Origin: Ectocarpus siliculosus
Taxonomy: Eukaryota; Sar; Phaeophyceae; Ectocarpales; Ectocarpaceae
Direction: 5' to 3'
Length of the DNA stretch: 64,000 bases
Assembly: GCA_000310025.1 (NCBI GenBank)
Contig: FN649748.1
Coordinates: 897,143 to 961,142 of the forward strand
A model generated the notes under the pieces. It saw only the letters and a program-made list of their open reading frames with translations, had not been told where the DNA came from and did no database searches. Below, in pieces: positions 5,716 through 36,572 of the stretch. The stretch's first letter is position 1. Each line of letters begins with the position of its first letter. The translations under genes were made by a program, and so were the position numbers.

Positions 5716-7114
5716 ATTACCCATTATTGGAAATTGTGGAAATCCCTTCATTCCGAGAGAGCCACAGGTCGGCATCCGGCCTTTTCTTTTTTTGTATGCA
5801 CTTTTCTTATATGTTTTTTTTCTTCCTGTGAAGTTTTGACGTTGCGCTTGCCATCGTCGCTGAAGTGTTTGTGGCTTCAAATCTTCTCAGCCGGCCTTCA
5901 AACTTTTTGCTTGTTGATAAGTCTCCGTGGTAACTTCTCCGCGCATGAGTCATATGCAGTTTGTTATGACCTGCGCTTTGACTCTCACGATGGGTATTTT
6001 ACCTCTCTGTCTTGCATTGGTGAGTACCTGCGTTATACGGAAGGATCGTTCCACGACGCAAACGTCGACGTCTCCGGTTTTTTTTTTGTTCCCTCCGCAC
6101 TCCTTCCTTGCGGCGGTTTTCACACCGACTTCGAACGTGGGGTGCAATTTCCTCTCTTCGTACCTTCTTCCTCGTCGGCCTTCTCCATCGTTATGTATAC
6201 ATAATGTATATCTCGATTTTTCGGCTTAAAGTTTTCGGTTCCGATAGAGACAAGACTACGGACTGACATTCATTTCCCTTTCACCCCCGACGGGACCGCG
6301 CGTTCGTCGAGTGCCGAAATTCTTCACCACTTCCTTGCCTCTCCCAACACCGTCCCTTCTTCCCGCCCCAATAAATCTTCTCCGCTTCTTCTTCTTCTTT
6401 CCTTCCTCCCGGACACTCACCACCATCCGTCCTGGATGTTGGCCCCCAGCCCCATTGGGGGGCGGGGGGCCAATCCTTAACCCTAGTACCTTTTATCGGT
6501 GTTTTTCTGGAGTCTGTGACGAGATGTGACGATCTCTGACGCGGGTGTGGAGCTACGTAGTCCGACCACTGTGTGCAGGTTGGAGCCGCTCTGCTTCTTC
6601 AGTCTGTTTCCTTCCTTATCCTTCCTTTCTCTCTCAGTCGCTCGCTATCGCTCACTCCCAGGGAACACCAGGGAACACCAGGGAACACTGAGCAAGGTGG
6701 AACGCCTGCACATCGCTTGCTACTGCTAGTAACCTGACCGCTACCTGCCTAAAGTCGGAATACTAGGAATCTGGCCAGGTGGTCGGGGTTTTCCTGAAAG
6801 ATATACCCGCCCAGATGGTATCTTAGTCCAAGGGTCCAAATACATACCATAACAGGTCTGAGCGGCACATGTAGACTAGTAGAGACTACTTGGGTGGGAC
6901 GGCGGGTGACGCGATGAGCGCATCGCGAAACCGTTGTGCACGAATGCATACACACACGCATACTACGAGGATTCGGCCAGTGCGACGGCTTCGCTTGGAG
7001 CCTAAGCTCCCAAACCTTGTCCCTGGAGGCATCGCTGAACGCCTGCACATGCCCATTCCTGTTGAAGGGAGGTGCCAAACGTCCCTCAAGAATGAGCAGG
7101 CTACGGGGAGACTA
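5716..7114. other. No gene recognised
   Basis: Contains CT-rich tracts, a triplicated AGGGAACACC motif at 6659-6687 and several short open frames with low-complexity translations. None looks like a conserved protein or has convincing splice partners. Confidence 0.35.
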
Positions 7115-12100: not shown

Positions 12101-13488
12101 GCATGTGGTTCACTTCATCATACCTCCTATTCACTTGCAACCGTGTGTCGTTATTTCCACCATCCCTCAAGGTTCAATCAAAACGCCGTTGATTGGCGGT
12201 TCTAGCGTATGGTTTGCATGCCGCAGTTCACCTTCTTCTAGGTTGGCACCAATGCACACCCTACATAGTTCATTCACCCACCCAGGTCCTCATCTGGGAC
12301 GAATTCACTCTACGCAATAAACTTTAATTCACACCATTTCCGCGATCCGCCGAGGAAAGTCATGCCATATTATTCTGCATGCCTTGTGAAAATAGATCAA
12401 CGCAATGAGTATCTTCGTCGATGGCAGTCTGAAGCAGTTGCTGGTATTAGCTGGTAGCCGCGGGGTAGATTAGACGGCCGGTTGAGTTCACTGCAAACAG
12501 ATCACCGCTCGATGGCGGACATGGAGGGCCGAATCAGGAGGTGCAGTGAACAATTGAAAATGGGGAATGAAGTTAGAGAGATCCGCCGGTCACCGTCATG
12601 TATTCGCATTTACACTCTTTCGTCCCGGTCGCTGCCCAGTCAGTACCTTCGAAGGGACGGCTTCTGTGGTCACAAGCCGAATACAAGAATGTATGTCGCG
12701 AGCTTGCGCGAGCACCTAAACTTGTGCAGGATATGTTGTACCCGAAAGAAGTGGTACATGGTCAAAATCGAGCACGCACGACAACGATTAGTAGACCACG
12801 ATGCAGCCGCGAAAGAAACAGGATCGCCGGAGGCAACGGCGTAAGTTTCCTACGGTACAGCCGTACCCGGCACCTAACGACACCACCCTGCTGAGTTTTG
12901 GAAAGGCTGTGGATGATGATGTACTCTGCATGATGTCTGTGTGTGGCGAGAGCGGGGGCAGAGGGACTCCGCACGCCAACGGATCAACCGACAGCAAAAC
13001 AAATGTCTCCGCATATCATGGCAACCGCCTTCCAGACCATCGCTAGTCCGAACTTTGTTTGAAAGAATTTATCGGAAAGCGGACAAGGAAAACGGCCAGC
13101 CGTTCAGAAGAGAGAAACCGCGACATGCTGGCACACACGGAACGCGAAAGAAACTCATCGGATCTCTGAATGCGTTCGTTCTCCGTTCTGTATAAATTTG
13201 TGTAGGCGTGTGCGCATGATGTGCAGGGGGATGTGCAAAGGAAAAAATAATCTGTTGCATACGATGGTGATGATGCGGACCCTCTACGATATAGTCTACA
13301 AAAACAAGACGACACAAAATGGTATGCATAGCATACAATATAAGTACATTAGTTGCTGCCACGGCCGGTGGGGGAAATAACGCATCTATCTACGATTTGT
13401 GGGCTGCTAGTGCCGATAGCCTCTTGCTCACCCCACGACCTGGGTCTCGGTACACGAGACTCCGATCGATGCACATCCAACATGCAGC
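12101..13488. other. No gene recognised
   Basis: Short overlapping frames on both strands. The longest (12482-12844 plus) reads like an Arg/Cys-rich peptide without a known domain. The stretch ends where the CATG-palindrome element begins. Confidence 0.3.
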
Positions 13489-14601
13489 GGGGCTTGTACA
13501 TTTTCGTACTTTTTCATGAAAATTTTCATGGAAGTCCATGGAAAGTCCATGGAATTTCATGGACTTCCATGGACTTCCATGGTCTATCATGAAACATTTC
13601 ATGGAATTCCATGGAAGTCAATGGAATTCCATGAAACTTTTCACGAAACTTTTCACGGCATTCCGTGAAAAGTTCCATGGATGTCCATGACATTTTTGTC
13701 ATGAAACTTTCCATGAAATAATTTTACTCCTTGTCATGAAACATTTCATGTTTTAATTTCATGGACGTTCATGACATGCTTTCATGAACGTTCATGACAT
13801 ATTTCATGAACGCCCATGAACGAACGTCCATGGAATGTTTCATGGACGTCCATGGTCTTTCATGAAATATTTCATGAACATCCATGAACGTCCATGGAAT
13901 GTTTCATGCACGTCCATGGTCTTTCATGAAATATTTCATGAACATCCATGAACGTCCATGGAATGTTTCATGCACGTCCATGGTCTTCCATGAAATATTT
14001 CATGAACATCCATGAACAACGTCCATGGAATGTTTCATGAACGTCCATGGTCTTGGACGTTCATGAAACATTTCATGAAAGCCCATGAACGTACATGAAA
14101 CATTTCATGAATCCATGAACGTTTCATGAACATCCATGAACGTTCATGAAAAGTTTCATGAAAGCCCATGGACATCCATGAAATGTTTCATGAACGCCCA
14201 TGGAAAAATTGCTGCTTCTAGCACTGCACGAAAGGGAACACAGTCTCGCAAATCTACTCGTAGCGTTCGTCTCCTTACGTTTGACTTGACCAATAGGCTA
14301 CACGGTCGACTGGCGGGCTAGCGGCTGCTCCTCGATTCTCGTGGGGGTATGCATGAGAACATTGCGAAGACGACCCTGTATTGTACGGCGTGTCTGCCAT
14401 CTCTCTGCGATCTCCACAGCTACTCAGCGCCAGCGATAATGCAAACCATGCGAGGGCGGGACGCCGAAGCGTCGACGCGTCGGCGGAAAACCCGAGGATA
14501 CATGGGGATATGTCCCCGCCCCCCCCAAAATTGTCCCGCGGCTCTGCTGATGGGTGGAGGATGGTTTTCACCACTAACTTTTCTTTCGGCTTGGAGCAGA
14601 T

Positions 14602-14932
14602 GCACCTTGAGCCCGCCGTGTGATTCATCTCAATTATTATAATGGTAGTTATTTTTTATTTATTTTTATATTTTTCATGGAATTCCATGAAAATTTTCAT
14701 GGAAGTCCATGGAGCTCTATGGAATTTTTCATGAAACTCCTTGGACGTTCATGAAACATTTCATGGCATTTCATGGAACTCCTTGACTCCTTGGACTTCC
14801 ATGAAATATTTCATGAAGAGTTCCATGGACGTCCATGAAAAGTTTCATGGAATTCCATGAAAAATATAAAAATAAATAAAAAATAACTACCATTATAATA
14901 ATTGAGATGAATCACACGGCGGGCTCAAGGTG
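14602..14932. repeat. 90-bp inverted repeat next to assembly gap
   Basis: Positions 14602-14690 (CACCTTGAGCCCGCCGTGTG, then an AT-rich stretch) are repeated base for base inverted at 14843-14932, with about 150 bp of CATG palindromes between. The right arm stops exactly at the gap of N. It may be genuine or an assembly artefact. Confidence 0.85.
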
Positions 14933-15017
14933 NNNNNNNNNNNNNNNNNNNNNNNNNNNNNNNNNNNNNNNNNNNNNNNNNNNNNNNNNNNNNNNNNNNN
15001 NNNNNNNNNNNNNNNNN
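14933..15017. other. Assembly gap (85 N)
   Basis: Unsequenced bases inside CATG element copy 1, directly after an inverted-repeat arm. A long palindrome here would explain the failed assembly. Confidence 0.95.
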
Positions 15018-15425
15018 TGCGATAATTCTCATAGAGTTTCATGGACGTCCATGAAAAGTTTCATGGAACTCCTTGGACTTCCATGAAAGTCCAAGGAGTT
15101 CCATGAAACTTTTCATGGAAGTGAAAGGAGTTCCATGAAAATTTTCTTGGAAGTCCAATGAAGCCCATGCACGCATTTCATGGAGACCAATGTCGAACAC
15201 AGCCAAGGCTCATTGTCGGCATTTATCAACCAAGTTGGACGTCACTGGAATATTTATTGAACGTCCATGAAATGTTTCATAGACTTCCATGATGAAATAT
15301 TTCATGGAAGTCCATGGAAGTTAATGGACTGGTTTCATGGAAGACCATGGACGTCCATGGACTTCCATGGACTTCCATGAAATATTTCACCAAAAAACAC
15401 TATAATGTAGATGACTGCATGCAGC

Positions 15426-23100: not shown

Positions 23101-26100
23101 CCGACAGTTATGTCCCTCTGCGCGAGCAGCGAGTGCCAAGACTCGATCACCGCCAGTTTCCTCGCCCAGCACTTGGAGGGCGCCCGCCGATCTAGGAAGC
23201 TCATCCAGGGGGATCCTCGCCCCTCAGCGGCGGCATCGGGTCGGGTAGGTGCCGGCCTGTAGTCAGGCTGTCGTGCCAGGAACATTCTGTCACGGGCAAG
23301 GAGAGAATGGAGGATATTGAGGTGAGAATTTCGACGATATTGACTATAGAGACAGGCAGAAACACAGGTAGACACAGAGACAGACACAGACGCACGCAGA
23401 GACGGACACAGTTCGACAACAGACGAACACAGACACAAGAACACAGAGGCGGACAGACAGGCAAACCATCAGACAGACTGGTTGAAGAAGAAACAGGACA
23501 GGAACAGACGCAGGAGGCAAAGACAAAGCGGCTTCGACCTCAACTATAGTATTCCACCTCAACTGCAGTTTTTCCGAAGCAACGAAAACAAGTTAGAAAA
23601 GCAAACGACTTCAGTTTGAACGCCAGATGGCGGAGTTTTCTACAGCAGGACCACCACGTCAAATGGGCGAGAGAAACACAACCCACCTTCGCGGCGAGAT
23701 GCAGCCTAGAGCGATTGCCACGCCCAGGGCCCTCGCCAACGCCTCTCCAGGGGCCAGTCCGCCGTACCCCCTCGCCCTCACTATTCGCCGCGTGGTGACC
23801 GCCTCAAGCCCCGTCGGTTCTCCCCCACCCGCGGGTTCGCCCTCTTCCGGCCCAAATACGCTCCTGAGTCGAGGGGAAAACCCACGCAGCACGCGGTTTT
23901 CGGAGGGGCGCAGCCGGGGAAGAGAGAAGGATGCCGGGAACGCGTAGCTTGTTGTGTGTCTACCAGCACGCTGCCGTGAGTTAGGAAGGGCCTGGCTTGC
24001 CTCCTATCATTTGCTGCAACGCTATCGGGAAAAATAGGAGCCGGTTGGACGTCTCATCTGCGTGTAGTATATAAAAGGGTGGGTCTGACTTGGCTCGTGG
24101 ATGAATCTGGCTGTGTGTTGGCGTCTAACAGCTCTGGCTTGTGTTGGTTCATGCAAGCGTCCCGCTAGCAGGCTGCAACATAGTTCTCCATTTACGTGCA
24201 ATGCTGTCATAGACCACGCCAAGGGCGAGTAGTGTATGCAGTGCGTTGCTCATGTCGTGGGAAAGGGATAGACCACGCCCGAGCAGCAACCACCCGTACG
24301 GACCTCAGCTCCATTGACCATCTTCGGTGTGGAAAAACCTCTCTCTCGGGTACCTGCGACTAGATTTCGTACGCGAACTCCAACAGATGCTACTACAACG
24401 CCCGCAAAAAAAAACACCTCGCAAAGTCAACTTCGCCCATCGTCAGGTAGTCGTCGAGCATCGCCAGAGCTCGAGACTCCCCGTAGCCCTCCACGCATAG
24501 ATCCAGAGCGCCGAAGGGGGCCTCGGCTTGCGCTGCCGCGGACAGAGCTTCCTGGACTTGGGGGTTACGGCTGTCGAACAGAACGAGTGGCAGGCCATAG
24601 GGGGCACAGCAGAATGAAGAGGGAAGTCGGGTAAGCGCGCGCGGGGGGGGGGGGTCTTGGTGGCCTGCGGACGGGAATTGTACACCCAATCGGATCGGAC
24701 ACATGACAGCCTTCCAGCTCGACCCCGGACCCGCCTAGAGCGCACACAAACGCTTTCACAACTACGGTATTGACTGCGAGCGGCACAGTCCGTGTGCGGG
24801 AGAAAACGCGCTACCAAGGCTGGACATCATACATTGTGTCTATTGGTATCGACCCACCTGCCAACCCCGGCGAGCACCTCCTCCAAGCTCGGAAAGCTTC
24901 CAGGGTCGATTCCGTCGGGGATCGGTGGAAGCGTCGAGGGCGCGGGGAACTCCGAACGTGCCGGTTCGTCTCCCTGGAACCGTTTTTTCTCGAAATCGCG
25001 GAAGTTCCAGGCCCCATCCGAGTCGTGCCCGTCGACGCCGGTGAGCTGTGAGGCCGACCAAGAGCGGACCTCAACACCGGCGGCGGTAGCGGGCGGCCGT
25101 CGCTTGGCGTCGCCGCCTCGGTCGAGGTGTCGCTCCGGAGCAAGAGCGGCTCGGACTCGCTCGTGTGACCGGCGCAACGCGTGCACGGGACTGTGAATTT
25201 TGTCGATAAGCACGAAAAACAAAAAAGAGACCGCACGTTTACGTTTGTACTGAGTCTGGCTTGAAGGGGGCGGTGGTCTGAATCTCTCGTCGGAACAATG
25301 TTGATTGAAACAACCATACTTCGAGATGACGTACCCGTAGGACTCAAAAACTTCGGTGTGTACGACAAGAGCACGTCCGGCATGGCGGTGCCCGCGGGCA
25401 CCACGGGTAAATCCCTCTACTGAGCAGCGTGCAAGAGGCTGATGACGAAAACCAAACAGTTCTGCGACACTCAAAGCCGTTGGCTTCTTGTTGGCAGCTG
25501 CTTTGCAAAGAAGAAGACAGGGGGGAGGAAGGTCAGTGCGGCGGCCGTGTACCGCGTTCGTTGGCAAAACAAACCTCGAGTGGAAGAAAACGTGAGATGC
25601 CCCCGCCTGCTTGACCAAGCTCCCGACTTCTTCTGCGGCATCCCCTGACCGCACGACGAGGTCGCTGCCGATGCCTCGTAGGGTTTTTCTGAGGTCTTGC
25701 ACCGCGTGGAATGCGAAGGCGGCGTCGAGACGGCTCTCTGCCGCTAGCTCCTGAGATTGTTGGCCAAAACGACGAAGAGAGATTTCGCGGGAAGGGGGAA
25801 GAGACCATGAGTTCCTCGAGAGAAAAAAAAACGAGACAGAAGTCGGTTGGCGTCGAGACGACTCTCCGCCGCTAGCTCCTGAGAGTGTTGGCCCAAGCGA
25901 AAAACGATTTTTTCACAGAGTCTTCAGTTCCTCAAGAAAAAAAAGGTTGGTATGGTTTCGAGCGTTCACGATGTGACATGAGCTGTCTACTAAGCTGGAC
26001 ACAGTGATACCCAAGCGACACAAAATGCTAACTGCTGTGGACACGCAATGCTCAGCACCGTACCAGAAAACAATTGGGAGATATCCCACGTGTTCAGAAC

Positions 26101-27596
26101 CGCCAACATTTAGTTACAGCAGTAGCTATCCGTCGCTGGGGGAAGTATCGAGCCTCGATGTATTCTTCTCCCAACGAGGGCTTGCGTCTTAATTAAACTC
26201 ATGGTCTGAAGCAAAGCTCTGATGATTGTGCGTGTGCAATGAGGAGACCCGCCAACAACCCGAACCTCGCGCAAAACAAGGTGATTCGTGTCTGCGGTAC
26301 GCCTTCCCGAGAGTGATAACTCGAGTGTTCACAAGATCTTGAAAAAAAAACGCACCGTGCATTGCCGGCTGCACACGCCAGCAGAGCACGCCCCATCACG
26401 CGCTCGTACGGGTTTGCACCTCCCTACCGTAGGGTGCACAAAACACAACAAAGCCTAGACCGCTTCTCAAAGCCCGAGTGCTCTGCGGAAAAAACAGTGA
26501 CGGCGGTGCTGGAAATGGGAGTGTTGGGATCGGCTGGTCAAGAGCTTTCATTTTCCGGAATGCATCATTTGACTCCTGGCATCCTCTGCGTCGTGGAGAC
26601 TTCGAGCTTTGTAAAATCGGTCCACGGGGGGTGGTATCTTACCCAACTTGTTATGTGCAACCGTATACGCCACCCTTCTTTCTCTCGAAATCTACCAATG
26701 ACATTGCCAACGAGGTACCAGTATCTACTACTGCTGTAGGTCTTGCCGTTGCCTGTGAAAATGGAACCTGTGCACGCAAGTCTACGACACCGCCCGCTTG
26801 TGTAGGGGGACATGGAACCCGTATTGCTGCACGAAAACGGCTGCTATAATCCTTCAAGGTGCTTGAGAACCTCCCCCCAGGGATCGACCTCTCAGCGACA
26901 GGATTGATGGGGGACCTCGCAAGCTATCTGTCGACAGGAGATTGCGGATCATGAACTGCCGTCAAGCTACTGTAAAGCAGGCCTACAGCAGTAGTTGTGG
27001 CATTGACGGTTTACTCTTGAGTGTTCAATAAATGCCAGGTACAGCAGAATTGTTCCTGGATACCTCACCATCAACGTCGAAAGGTGCGCTACTGTACAAA
27101 ACTTGAAAGCTGGACACACCTGATCATCGAAGACGTACACGGGCACAACCCCCGCCGCCCCGGCGGCGGCAACCAACGCGTCGTGGTCATGGGTCCGCAA
27201 GTCGCACGCGGTGAAGTACACCACGGCAACATCGTCAGAACCCAGCAGGGGGAGCTGCAGGACAGAGACCCTCGGCAGTGGAGGTTCCGCCCAGAAGGCC
27301 GCCATGCTTACACCCGCACGCCCGTTGTTGCGGTGATTTCTCCGCTGGGTGAGCCAGGGGCTGCTGCTTCCTAGATGGGGTGCAGCGGAGCATCGCGAGG
27401 AGCGCGTGCCACCGATGCCGCCGGAGCTCACACCGCTGGTGCTGATGCCGGTGCTTCGCGCACGCTGCGTCTCCTGCTGACGCAGCAAGGCTGTTGGGTT
27501 CAGGTCAGCGCGGTGGACAAACGCCGACTGAGGCCTGGTGGCGGCATGGGCGCACGTGAGGACACACAGCAGCGACAGCGGAGCTGCCAAGCCCAT
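17168..27596 (-). CDS. Plastid-targeted photolyase-like/alpha-beta hydrolase fusion protein
   Basis: Twelve exons join in phase to about 867 codons: 27596-27120, 25750-25575, 25190-24858, 24570-24418, 23863-23687, 23256-23084, 21275-20840, 20004-19934, 19427-19228, 18561-18373, 17768-17650 and 17267-17168. All introns are GT-AG. Residues 1-19 form a signal peptide, followed by QSAF, a plastid-type bipartite signal. Residues about 115-330 match the N-terminal Rossmann domain of photolyases/cryptochromes (VYFTACDLRTHDHDAL, then SASQLTG). Residues 330-496 keep only part of the FAD domain (IALGCISPR, SWHSLLAQRD), so classical photolyase activity is doubtful. From about 500 comes a hydrolase: LLVHGFGASSDQW, nucleophile elbow GNSIGG (Ser639), acid in VKDPLND (Asp806) and GGHCPHHE (His834), resembling pheophytinase-type enzymes. 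A Ser run encoded by a GAA/TTC repeat interrupts it. The same order of domains is known in plants (Arabidopsis At4g25290, from memory). The substrate is unknown. Confidence 0.88.
20339..20440. repeat. Tandem duplication of 50 bp in an intron
   Basis: TAGCCACACAA and CCATGATAGTCTGATCCTGT occur twice about 50 bases apart, inside intron 7 of the photolyase/hydrolase gene. No functional hint. Confidence 0.75.
21694..22023. mobile_element. Foldback element in intron 6
   Basis: The left arm (CACCACTTCGAGCGTGTGCT, GTGACAGTTGTGTTGGGCAT) recurs inverted on the right, and the arms meet near 21860. The arms are about 150 bp and somewhat diverged. Open frames on both strands are mirror images because of the palindrome and are not genes. 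It looks like a MITE-type foldback insertion in intron 6 of the photolyase/hydrolase gene. Confidence 0.75.
22345..22562 (+). repeat. Dispersed repeat, two direct copies
   Basis: About 22350-22440 and 22463-22562 share GATGCCGTAG/CATGCCGTAG, CATTGACCTCGCATCCC, AAGCCGGGACGG and ACCAGGCT. A third copy lies at 47036-47145. Each is preceded or followed by a G-run. The family is unknown; the copies lie in intron 6 of the photolyase/hydrolase gene. Confidence 0.7.
23330..23480 (+). repeat. CAGACA-rich low-complexity tract
   Basis: Imperfect short repeats of ACAGACACAGA and CACAGAGACGGACA in intron 5 of the photolyase/hydrolase gene. The frames across it are low-complexity artefacts. Confidence 0.65.
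25721..25950 (-). repeat. Tandem duplication of an exon edge and its splice acceptor
   Basis: The 5' end of exon 2 of the photolyase/hydrolase gene (minus, GAGCTAGCGGCAGAGAGCCG) and the intron before it are duplicated at about 25849-25950. The second copy keeps a CTCAG acceptor and GAGCTAGCGGCGGAGAGTCG. The upstream copy could act as an alternative acceptor, but reading through it would add intron sequence. Confidence 0.75.
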
Positions 27597-28136
27597 CGTG
27601 TGCTGCCTTTGTACTCACCTCTACCATGATCATGAGAGCATGAGACAGCAGCCTGAGAATGCGGCGGAACTCGACATGCAGGCACTGTCGTTCTCTCATC
27701 CCCCTTGGTTTTTTCGCCGCTTTTCGGGGCTTTCGCTTGTCTGACAACACCCACCGCGCCCCCCATCCCGCTCCAGGCGATCCCACCTCTGCCCACACCC
27801 CGTAGTCGCCCTGCTCCCTGCATCGCTAGAAAAATCGGAAACAGAGAGGCATTACGTGTACTGTGTAGTCTAAGATTACGCGTGGGGGGATCTCTTGACG
27901 GTACATTTAGATCTACATACAGCAGAGACAAGTCTGTATGCTTTACAGTATCGACTGCCTCAGTCTTTGTGGGACGACAAACAAACCTCGATCACAAGCG
28001 TATTAATTACAAACGTAGGTTGGGTTCAAACAAGCACGACCATCAGCGTGTTTTCCGATGATGTGACCAAATGGAAAGTAGGAGTATGTCAGATGTCTAC
28101 CTGTATACACAACATCTAACCTGCGGTCCCACAGGT
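27597..28136. other. Upstream region of the photolyase/hydrolase gene
   Basis: Holds the presumed promoter and 5' UTR of the minus-strand gene. I saw no convincing TATA box or other named motif. Confidence 0.35.
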
Positions 28137-32289: not shown

Positions 32290-32601
32290 ACACATCGATA
32301 GTAACTCTTTAGGACTAACCGATGTTGAACGTAGCAAGGCTAGGTTCTTCACGCGAGCAAGGCTAGGTTGCTCACCCCACATCTACCCTAACCCTAACCC
32401 TACCCCTACCCCTAACCCTAACCCTCACCCACAGCCAAAGCACGGCCTCGCGGCCGCGAACTGGGCGGCACGCGGCTGCGCCGCGTGCTCGGAATGCGGA
32501 ACGGGTAGAGCGCTCGGGAGAGGAATCGGCCGCCAGAACCAAGGCAGAACAACGCCCGACCAATCAGAACGCGTTAGTCCTAAAGATCTACTATCAATGT
32601 G
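32290..32601. mobile_element. MITE-like element carrying telomere-like repeats
   Basis: The left end (CACATCGATAGTAACTCTTT, AGGACTAAC) and the inverted right end (CACATTGATAGTAGATCTTT, AGGACTAAC) form about 28-bp imperfect terminal inverted repeats. Inside, 32387-32430 is a CCCTAA run mixed with CCCTACCC, and a CGCGGC-rich stretch follows. No frame of interest and no clear target duplication. Confidence 0.65.
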
Positions 32602-33755: not shown

Positions 33756-36572
33756 TACCGTAATTGTGCGTGTGATGGCACCCATCGCACCCATCGTTGA
33801 TTTCGCACCCATCCGTGTTATGGCACCGGGGTGCGCAAAAATATCAAGAACGGCATGATTTAAAACTGTATTTCCGCACCGGTATCGGTGTTATCGCACC
33901 TGGTGCGATATGAACGAAATAAAATCTGCCCAGGACGAAAAATTGCGTGCCGCAAGGTGCCGGTACCCTCCAGGCCACGTGTCGAACGGTTCGTGACGCG
34001 GTTGGCAGGTACCAATTGGGGGGGCTTGTACATTTTCGTACTTTTCCATGGAAAGTTTCATGGACTTCCATGGACTTCCATGGAACCGTTCCATGGACTT
34101 CCATGGTCTTCGAAACCTTCCATGGAAGTTCATGAAAAAAATCGTTGAAGACCATTGATTTCCATGGAATTCCATGGAACTTCCATAGGCTTCCATGGCT
34201 CTCCATGGAAATCCATGGAATTCAATGAAAAAATTCACGACATTCCGTGAAAAGTTCCATGGATGTCCATGACATTTTTGCCATGAAACATGCCATGAAA
34301 TAATTTCACTCCTTGTCATGAAACATTTCATGGAAAAAATTCATGGGCGTTCATGAATTCATGAACGCCCGTGAACGTTTATGAAACGTTTCATGAATGC
34401 CCATGAACGTTCATGAAAAAACCTTTCATGGACGCCCATGGGCGTTCATGAAATATTTCATGATAGCCCATGGTCTGTCATGAAACATTTCATGGACGTC
34501 CATGGTCTTTTATGAAGTATTTCATGAACGAACGTCCATGGATGTTCATGAAATATTTCATGAAAAGGCCATGGACGTCCATGAAACATTTCATGAACGT
34601 TCATGAAATGTTTCATGAAAGACCATTGACGTCCATGGACCATTTCATGAACATCCATGAACGTCCATGAACGTCCATAACCATCCATAAAACATTCCAT
34701 GAACACCCATGGGAATATTTCATGGAATTCCAAATTCTGGAACACCAAATTCGTATACCGGTTGATGGGAATATAATGCAGAAGCACACAAGGAGCATGC
34801 ATACCAAGACTGAGAGAATTCGTGCAGTAGATTGTTAAGGAGTGTGGCTGCTAGCGTGAATAGGGTACATCCTATTGTTCATAGGATGTGGGATGGTCAG
34901 GAGGTATTCGTTCTTGTACCCATACCCCCCCTTAGAGTTGTCTACTTTGTGTGCCCCCTGAGATGAAGTTGGATCCCGACTTCATCTCAGATCCTTGCTG
35001 ATCGTCTCTCAGCAAAAACAAGCAACTCTCCCATCTCTACATGGCCGTGGACAAGAGTGTCAACGACGGAACCTTCATCTAACTCTAGGAGCAAGCTACC
35101 GTCTACGGCTTAACTCCTCGTAAATGGTTTAAGACAACGATGAGGTTGTTCAACATCACGTAACATTGCTTTCATTCGTCATGGGGGTGTGTTGAAATGC
35201 AGCGCATTACTTCGGTAGCTAGATTAGATCCAGCTGCATGATTGCTGTATGCCATGATACGAAGATGCGGTGTGATAAATGACGTTTTGTACAGCAGTAG
35301 AACGTAACACGGTGTCAGATGCTTGTAATTGTAGCGAAATATGGAACGTTTCATGGACTTCCGCGGAAATTTTCATGGAAGATCATGGAGCTCCAACATG
35401 GAACTTTTCATGAAACTCCTTGGACTTTCATGAAACATTTCATGTCATTTCATGGAACTCCTTGGACTTCCATGGAAATTTTCATGGAACTCCTTGGACT
35501 TCCATGAAATATTTCATGGAAGTGAAAGGAGTTTCATGAACAGATTCATGGAAGTCCATGAAGCTCCGTGGAAACCAGTAAAACGTTTCTTGGAAGTCCA
35601 ATGAAGCCCATGCACACATTTCATGGACATCAATGTCCAACACAGCCAAGGCTCATTGTCGGCATTTATCCACCAAGTTGGCGTCACTGGAATATTTCTA
35701 GAACGCCCATGAAATGTTTCATAGACTTCCATGATGAAATATTTCATGGACTTCCACGGACTTCCATGGACATGGTGTCATGGAGTTCCATGGACTTCCA
35801 TGAAACGTTTCATTTTTCCATGGACTTACATGGACATCCATGAAATGTTTCATGGAAGTCCATGGAGGTACATGGACATTCATGAAATGTTTCATGGAAC
35901 TCCATGGACTTCCATGAAACATTTCACTAAAAAATACTATAATGTAGATGATTGCAATTGGGGGGGGCATTTCATGTACACATATATCATGCCATCGTGG
36001 TTTGCACAGTAGAAATGATGTTTTTTTTTCTACGGTAATCAGTACATAGAATGCACTCACTCACCCAACCAACCAAGCACACAGTACACATCCCGCACCT
36101 TCAACTAACCGAACAAGAAGGAGTTCGTAAACGCCTACTACTTCAGTTGTACCGGTAATATGCCCCTTGAGGCAGACAAAGACAGAGGGAAGCACCATCC
36201 AACAAGGGAGGGGTTTGCGACCAACAAAGAGGCTGGAAGAAAAACCATACCGTGCCGTATACCTTCCCCAGCAGGGAACCACAGCGTCTGTTCTCTTTGG
36301 CACACGCCACCCCAAACTCGGATTCGACCTCATCACTGATCACCACTCCGGGCTGGTTGCATAGTACCACCTACGCAAGCTACATGTGCCAGGAACCGGG
36401 GGTGCGTTGGAAATCTTGAACGAAATGACATAATTGCATTTCCGCACCACCGATATCGGTGATGATATGGCACCCATCGGTGTTATGACACCGGGGTGCG
36501 ATAAAAAACCAAGATAGGAATGATTTAAGAAACGATCGCACCCCGGTGCCATCACACGCACAATTACGGTAT
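33756..36572. mobile_element. Terminal-inverted-repeat element hosting CATG element copy 2
   Basis: The ends are exact 27-bp inverted repeats: 33756-33782 starting TACCGTAATTGTGCGTGTGA, and 36546-36572. Internal blocks such as CACCGGGGTGCG, GCACCGG/GCACCACCGATATCGGTG and ATGATTTAA occur on both sides. Removing the nested CATG element leaves about 0.87 kb. The TA at each end may be a target duplication, as in Tc1/mariner elements. It has no transposase frame. Confidence 0.75.
34021..35954 (+). mobile_element. CATG-palindrome element, copy 2
   Basis: It starts GGGGCTTGTACATTTTCGTA and ends ACTATAATGTAGATGATTG like copy 1, with a different 8-bp target duplication, CAATTGGG (34013-34020 and 35955-35962). 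The palindrome arrays at 34045-34730 and 35340-35930 are collinear with copy 1: ATTCCGTGAAAAGTTCCATG and ACTCCTTGTCATGAAACATT occur at matching places, and so does the core AACACAGCCAAGGCTCATTG. The middle (about 34735-35340) is unrelated to copy 1 and holds a 12-bp-stem hairpin at 34958-34990. Length 1,934 bp against 1,929 bp for copy 1. Confidence 0.88.

Follow-up and report, generated by a model that had tools for sequence, protein, structure and literature searches.

Classic MITEs are under about 0.6 kb in length, and Sola1 elements duplicate 8 bp of their target. In the hAT transposon Hermes the repeated subterminal motifs, one pair of which is quasi-palindromic, are bound by BED zinc fingers and follow a strict phasing, and the preferred target is nTnnnnAn (PMC10368747); subterminal repeats are likewise reported to be important in Kat1 (PMC4763223). 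Multiple transposase-binding sites are documented in the arms of Galileo, a Foldback-like element of the P superfamily (PMC3688188), Zisupton (KDZ) elements have an 8-bp target-site duplication (TSD; PMC12730594), and giant KDZ and Sola-1 elements have been reported from Ectocarpus (PMC12477816).

The repeat described here lies twice in a 64,000-nucleotide stretch of Ectocarpus siliculosus DNA, the whole of which we call the window. With non-autonomous hAT elements of the Hermes, Ac/Ds and Tol2 type it shares an 8-bp TSD, a short terminal inverted repeat (TIR) and repeated subterminal motifs, and its 10/12-bp CATG stepping is in line with the phasing of the Hermes subterminal repeats (PMC10368747), but it differs from hAT elements in carrying about 50 CATG per kb. 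It resembles Galileo/Foldback in its long arms of internal repeats with, potentially, several binding sites (PMC3688188), whereas a 4-bp core underlies the arrays of its arms, whose inverted-repeat character was assessed over the outer 60 bp. The TSD is as long as that of KDZ (PMC12730594); the KDZ/Sola1 giants, compared by description rather than by their tips, are generally >10 kb and gene-bearing, unlike this element. As in MITEs and Pack-type elements, no transposase was seen, movement is presumably in trans, and varied cores lie between the same ends; start-end pairs are longer than classic MITEs, at 781–2654 bp (5408 bp in C53, which holds a nested insert), and a TIR is present. On balance we favour the view that this is a non-autonomous cut-and-paste DNA transposon, long, MITE-like and palindrome-armed, on whose tips and CATG arrays a DDE transposase supplied in trans would dock.

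Borders, copies and target sites

The two window copies lie exactly where the first-pass annotation had placed them, at 13489-15417 and 34021-35954, each within its own perfect 8-bp flanking repeat, CATGCAGC for copy 1 and CAATTGGG for copy 2. Their ends had been called exactly the same, which holds for the first 25 bp (GGGGCTTGTACATTTTCGTACTTTT), identical in both, and not for the last 24 bp, which are near-identical. The features are as follows.

6065..6197, plus strand: unoccupied target, a repeat copy matching the C20 insertion site across the junction, 126/133 through a single 8-mer, CTTCGAAC
13481..13488, no strand: left target-site duplication of copy 1, CATGCAGC, a perfect 8-bp repeat with 15418-15425
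13489..15417, plus strand: copy 1, complete element with core type A, 1929 bp including 85 N
13489..14208, plus strand: left arm of copy 1, terminal inverted repeat and CATG array, with CATG clusters; RNA fold of the arm z = -19
14209..14668, plus strand: core type A of copy 1, CATG-poor, two pieces of the longer C57 core
14867..14932, minus strand: right edge of core A repeated in inverted orientation beside the N stretch (C23:912009-912074, minus, 91%)
14933..15017, no strand: 85 N in copy 1, probably an assembly gap
15182..15273, plus strand: conserved 3' subterminal block, common to core types A and B, at least 40 genome places at 90–100%
15394..15417, plus strand: right tip of copy 1, ending in ACTATAATGTAGATGACTG, 46 genome matches and 0 in controls
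15418..15425, no strand: right target-site duplication of copy 1, CATGCAGC
34013..34020, no strand: left target-site duplication of copy 2, CAATTGGG
34021..35954, plus strand: copy 2, complete element with core type B, 1934 bp
34021..34735, plus strand: left arm of copy 2, terminal inverted repeat and CATG array, with CATG clusters
34736..35345 (edges approximate), plus strand: core type B of copy 2, without a match to core A among the matches listed
35346..35954, plus strand: right arm of copy 2, with CATG array, conserved block (35625-35715) and right tip
35955..35962, no strand: right target-site duplication of copy 2, CAATTGGG

Elsewhere in the window, two minus-strand frames at 24827-27614 match DNA photolyase and are probably exons, and a telomere-like interstitial repeat (ACCCTA, 7.7 units) occupies 32385-32430; at gathering scores Rfam returned no match on the window. 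The EsV-1-7 cysteine motif, which is reported to have proliferated in brown algae (PMC12477816), has at least 150 matches in the genome (best 150 of 880 candidates) and none in 14 control genomes; a brown-algal host is accordingly the most likely one.

Searching the whole genome (189 Mb, 492 contigs) with the element ends, at up to 3 mismatches, gave 42 matches to the left-end motif (first 25 bp) and 46 to the right-end motif (last 24 bp), against none for reversed-pattern controls of either; a shorter left pattern was unspecific at 3 mismatches (68 matches vs 34 in controls). The conserved block near the right end, 91 bp long, recurs at 90–100% identity among the best 40 of 42 candidates, two of the places lying within the C20 copy. 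We read the element as a DNA transposon family, probably non-autonomous, with about 40 recognisable copies, from which we assembled 20 start-end pairs and analysed 19, C402 being dropped as a duplicate of C3b; the pairs leave aside left ends without a partner or with unread surroundings, and C211, which is mostly N. An earlier description was not found in the literature, and the family may already bear a name among the 51 curated Ectocarpus families given as 'DNA/Unknown' in Table 1 of PMC12477816.

The ends had been thought to show only a weak similarity instead of an inverted repeat, a view that the comparison of the outer 60 bp overturns: set in register, the left tip and the right tip in reverse agree at 9/14, 13/20 and 27/40 positions, an imperfect inverted repeat, and the matches over 20 and 40 bp were equalled by 0 of 20,000 shuffles. 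Among the 19 pairs the mean difference is 2.9% in the first 25 bp, 11.5% in the last 24 bp and 23% in positions 26–60 (ungapped), figures that are biased for the tips, as the copies were partly selected by their ends.

A perfect in-register 8-bp duplication flanks 10 of the 19 pairs (C30b and C349 among them share one site); with up to one mismatch and up to 3 bp of slippage the figure rises to 15/19, compared with 3/342 in a partner-swapped control, and four pairs (C2b, C15, C165 and C455a) have no 8-bp duplication. The distinct sites with a duplication number 15, two of them with one mismatch. We also joined the flanks of 12 insertions through one copy of the 8-mer and matched these joined sites against the genome, which gave uninterrupted empty sites for three insertions, at least 33 for C20, at least five for C60 and at least two for C3a (best 40 of 1217 candidates). 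All 40 scored matches span the junction, and the one in the window, for C20, was read through: it aligns through the single CTTCGAAC, which fixes the borders and shows insertion with an 8-bp duplication. The other nine joined sites had no match among the matches listed (best 40 of 1217 candidates), a result that carries little weight because few candidates were scored. Taken together, the number of copies, their 8-bp duplications and the unoccupied targets strongly support the original claim that the element is mobile and has these borders.

At C30:3865632 and C349:14795 the element occupies the same site (CGAGCGTT) but measures 1117 bp at the former, 32 of them N, and 1578 bp at the latter, and the right flank at C158:77793 is that of C30/C349. 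These three loci are haplotigs or duplications in which instability of the array is perhaps visible. A further candidate relative, C4:2794135, was rejected because it consists of a left end alone, with an 8-bp match that probably arose by chance.

Cores and the source of transposase

A core shared by the two window copies had been proposed, and this did not hold: the cores of copies 1 and 2 have no mutual match among the matches listed, and each recurs in other copies. Arms, 3' block and tips are common to both core types. Searching with the C57 core located parts of core A at C57, in copy 1 and at no fewer than 24 other loci of 82–98% identity, with a longer form in C57, C455:532k, C95, C107 and C74 (91–94%) and, for part of the core, at least 14 further relatives at 71–76% (best 40 of 101 candidates throughout). 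In copy 1 the pieces that align to C57 are C23:911351-911675 (97%) and C23:911673-911810 (89%). The core A part with distant relatives corresponds to L049 2011-3024, and one such relative, C134:73503, has at a distance of ~10 kb a weak hAT match (C134:83614) that is interrupted by three stops; this relative is not one of the 109 element coordinates used below for the distance to hAT genes. Core B is common to copy 2 and C2b and, by way of C2b, is also found in C25:876k, C3b, C3:5.51M, C12, C3:2.9M and C455:512k (in both cases among the matches listed). Two cores on the same arms could be two deletion products of a larger element, or the arms may carry unrelated passengers.

Six core-A frames from C57 and C107 gave no Pfam match over the cut-off (best E 0.005, 18 bits vs 28.3), and in C23b and C2b the longest frame seen within core B has 78 aa. 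Because the cores hold no recognised gene, we do not claim gene capture of the Pack type. No transposase was seen among the loci inspected, which supports the non-autonomous status first proposed, and an autonomous partner with the same ends was not found among them either. C53 (5.4 kb) was rejected as an autonomous copy, since its middle is a nested repeat found at many other loci; 10 of its 19 frames of at least 100 aa were run against Pfam, with no match. Long open frames beside the ends at C10 and C56 turned out to be retroelement integrase and reverse transcriptase, which we read as Ty3/Gypsy. A 21-bp pattern from the left tip had no match in viral contigs. Among possible long copies the strongest candidate is C211 (30296-41098), with intact ends and a perfect TSD, AGTATACG, around ~10.8 kb, of which 9851 bases are N.

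The suggestion that mobilisation is hAT-like keeps the fit of its 8-bp TSD and loses ground elsewhere. Twenty PF05699 matches mark hAT transposases in the genome, none of them within 47 kb of the 109 element coordinates, the nearest lying at 47 kb. A resident hAT on C9 (~3998.6-4002.4 kb, with ends in L090/L091) has the TIR TAGGGTTGTGTATCGG and a perfect 8-bp TSD, ACTTGTGC (both by eye), a long open transposase frame, of which C354 holds a 97% copy, and, subterminally, just inside the TIR, the palindromes CGATAT/ATATCG. Its tip reads TAGGG, whereas those of the element read GGGGC (left) and CAGTC (right), and in the first 11 bp there are 5 mismatches on the left and 7 on the right, as compared by eye with this one hAT family; the Repbase family rule allows at most one mismatch in an 11-bp tip alignment (PMC4455052). 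We therefore rejected the C354/C9 hAT as the partner, its tips differing at 5 and 7 of 11 bp. Run with tblastn against 90 other loci, its transposase gave a single match of 14 residues, and this lies in the flank of the same hAT, L091. The Hermes-type target nTnnnnAn occurs in 2 of the 15 distinct targets, in contrast to the Hermes preference. A hAT origin is thereby neither shown nor excluded; given the failed tip and target tests, we consider it likely that the family works in the manner of a hAT or Foldback element, through repeated subterminal sites, but we do not classify it as hAT. Assuming mobilisation in trans, hAT is the superfamily that we would tentatively name for the transposase, a P/Foldback-like or another superfamily is a lesser possibility, KDZ/Zisupton is unlikely and Sola1 is more unlikely again.

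It is possible, though doubtful, that the family itself belongs to KDZ (Zisupton type) or Sola1 and has its partner among the giant DNA transposons of brown algae. The TSD length of Zisupton and the giants reported from Ectocarpus would fit, as would the intact ends and perfect TSD that enclose the long, mostly N stretch of C211; the KDZ profile PF18758 has no match in this genome, which says little, as the control genomes were equally silent.

The CATG-rich arms

CATG reaches 51 per kb in copy 1 and 47 in copy 2, compared with 4.5 in the remaining window, and numbers 52–98 in each of the 20 assembled copies. The array unit is CATG with a loose TY on its left flank and RA on its right. Across 18 elements, adjacent CATGs are set 10 bp (n=556) or 12 bp (n=248) apart and hardly ever 11 bp (n=18), and tandem periods of 10–94 bp are present in the arms. 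Folded as RNA, the left arm reaches -351.8 kcal/mol vs -185.7 kcal/mol for 20 shuffles, which yields the z value given in the feature list.

The body had been described as built from short palindromes such as TTTCATGAAA, and this description fails as a statement about strict palindromes: only 162 of the 1339 CATGs in the 18 elements sit in perfect 10-bp palindromes, fewer than the 209.9 expected under random flank pairing, so that half-site composition accounts for most of the palindromic units and strict palindromy as a selected feature is rejected. Single flank positions are matched slightly above expectation, at 663 vs 599.9, 950 vs 925.3 and 594 vs 571.3 from the CATG outwards.

In 243 arm alignments CATG ranks highest in retention among 75 common 4-mers, at 0.840 where 4-mers overall reach 0.636, a value that misalignment of array units may inflate. 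Divergence, taken over all local alignments of at least 100 bp with off-diagonal ones included, is 0.026 in CATG columns, 0.060 within 6 bp of a CATG and 0.029 in the rest at ≥93% identity, and 0.041/0.098/0.049, 0.054/0.167/0.066 and 0.059/0.238/0.103 in the three lower identity classes. CATG columns are thus lowest in every class, clearly so only where misalignment is likeliest, and we make no claim that CATG is under selection within copies.

The first-pass annotation knew this architecture from no named family. Internally repetitive ends are in fact known from hAT and Galileo/Foldback elements, while the density and phasing of the CATG arrays do look unusual. Nor are such arrays confined to one family here: a second palindrome-armed repeat in the window (~1366-1821) has other ends (TCTCCCACACT...AGTGTGGGAGR), CATG-centred arrays of GCCCATGGGC and telomere-like CCCTAA inside, and occurs elsewhere at L046 (~1527-2070) and L067 (from ~582; right end not found). 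Arrays of short palindromes are thus a recurrent feature among the DNA-transposon-like repeats here; this makes the element less unique and raises the question of a shared cause. In L046 the C25 element is inserted in the left end of the second-family copy (~1518-1560).

Proposed mode of transposition and its significance

In the mechanism that we favour, a DDE transposase encoded by another element would supply the activity in trans and would recognise the nearly invariant tips. The CATG ladder may act as a multivalent docking surface on which many transposase copies are bound or queued, aiding tip binding, in the way that subterminal repeats serve hAT and Galileo/Foldback elements, and steps of 10 and 12 bp would place the CATG sites roughly on one face of the helix. 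The element would then be cut out and joined to its target with an 8-bp stagger, and any core lying between two such arms could be mobilised.

Alternatively, the arrays may be passive, a tandem-repeat expansion that transposition tolerates and in which only the tips matter. The wide spread of pair lengths and tandem periods, the nearly equal pace at which CATG and other sequence change in high-identity alignments and the lack of favour for strict palindromes are all consistent with such an expansion; the steps of 10 and 12 bp with hardly any of 11, the presence of CATG arrays in every assembled copy and their occurrence in a family of the same genome with different ends argue against it, and we regard it as rather unlikely.

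A Foldback-like element of the P superfamily, with arms of internal repeats as in Galileo, is improbable as a classification of this family, its long, internally repetitive and self-complementary arms and the documented binding sites of Galileo notwithstanding, and Table 1 of PMC12477816 has no P element for Ectocarpus. More speculative still, and hardly probable, the CATG ladder might be a self-marking platform, along which a transposon-encoded protein polymerises or whose CATG it methylates, licensing or silencing transposition, a trick that would have evolved again in one or more families with different ends, such as that of the GCCCATGGGC arrays. The Ectocarpus Sola1 protein is described as combining a ParB-like domain with a methyltransferase domain whose predicted product is N4-methylcytosine or N6-methyladenine (PMC12477816). 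That the copies are an immobile satellite or an assembly artefact with borders similar by chance, as the N stretches in copy 1 and several other loci and the apparent duplicate loci (C30b/C349 on both flanks, C158 on the right flank, C3b/C402) might suggest, is refuted by the uninterrupted empty sites and goes against the 8-bp duplications at 15 distinct sites, and we give it practically no credence.

Exact borders, targets and empty sites are now given for a brown-algal transposon family, which offers a test case of how far one 4-bp motif, repeated as a ladder, can take over a transposon end. Should the ladder be passive, it would illustrate how repeat slippage lengthens the arms of an element whose tips remain unchanged. 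If instead the ladder is a platform for protein docking or methylation, it would link transposon ends with the marking of chromatin, and this in a lineage that is said to have no silencing machinery on a par with those of animals or plants (PMC12477816).
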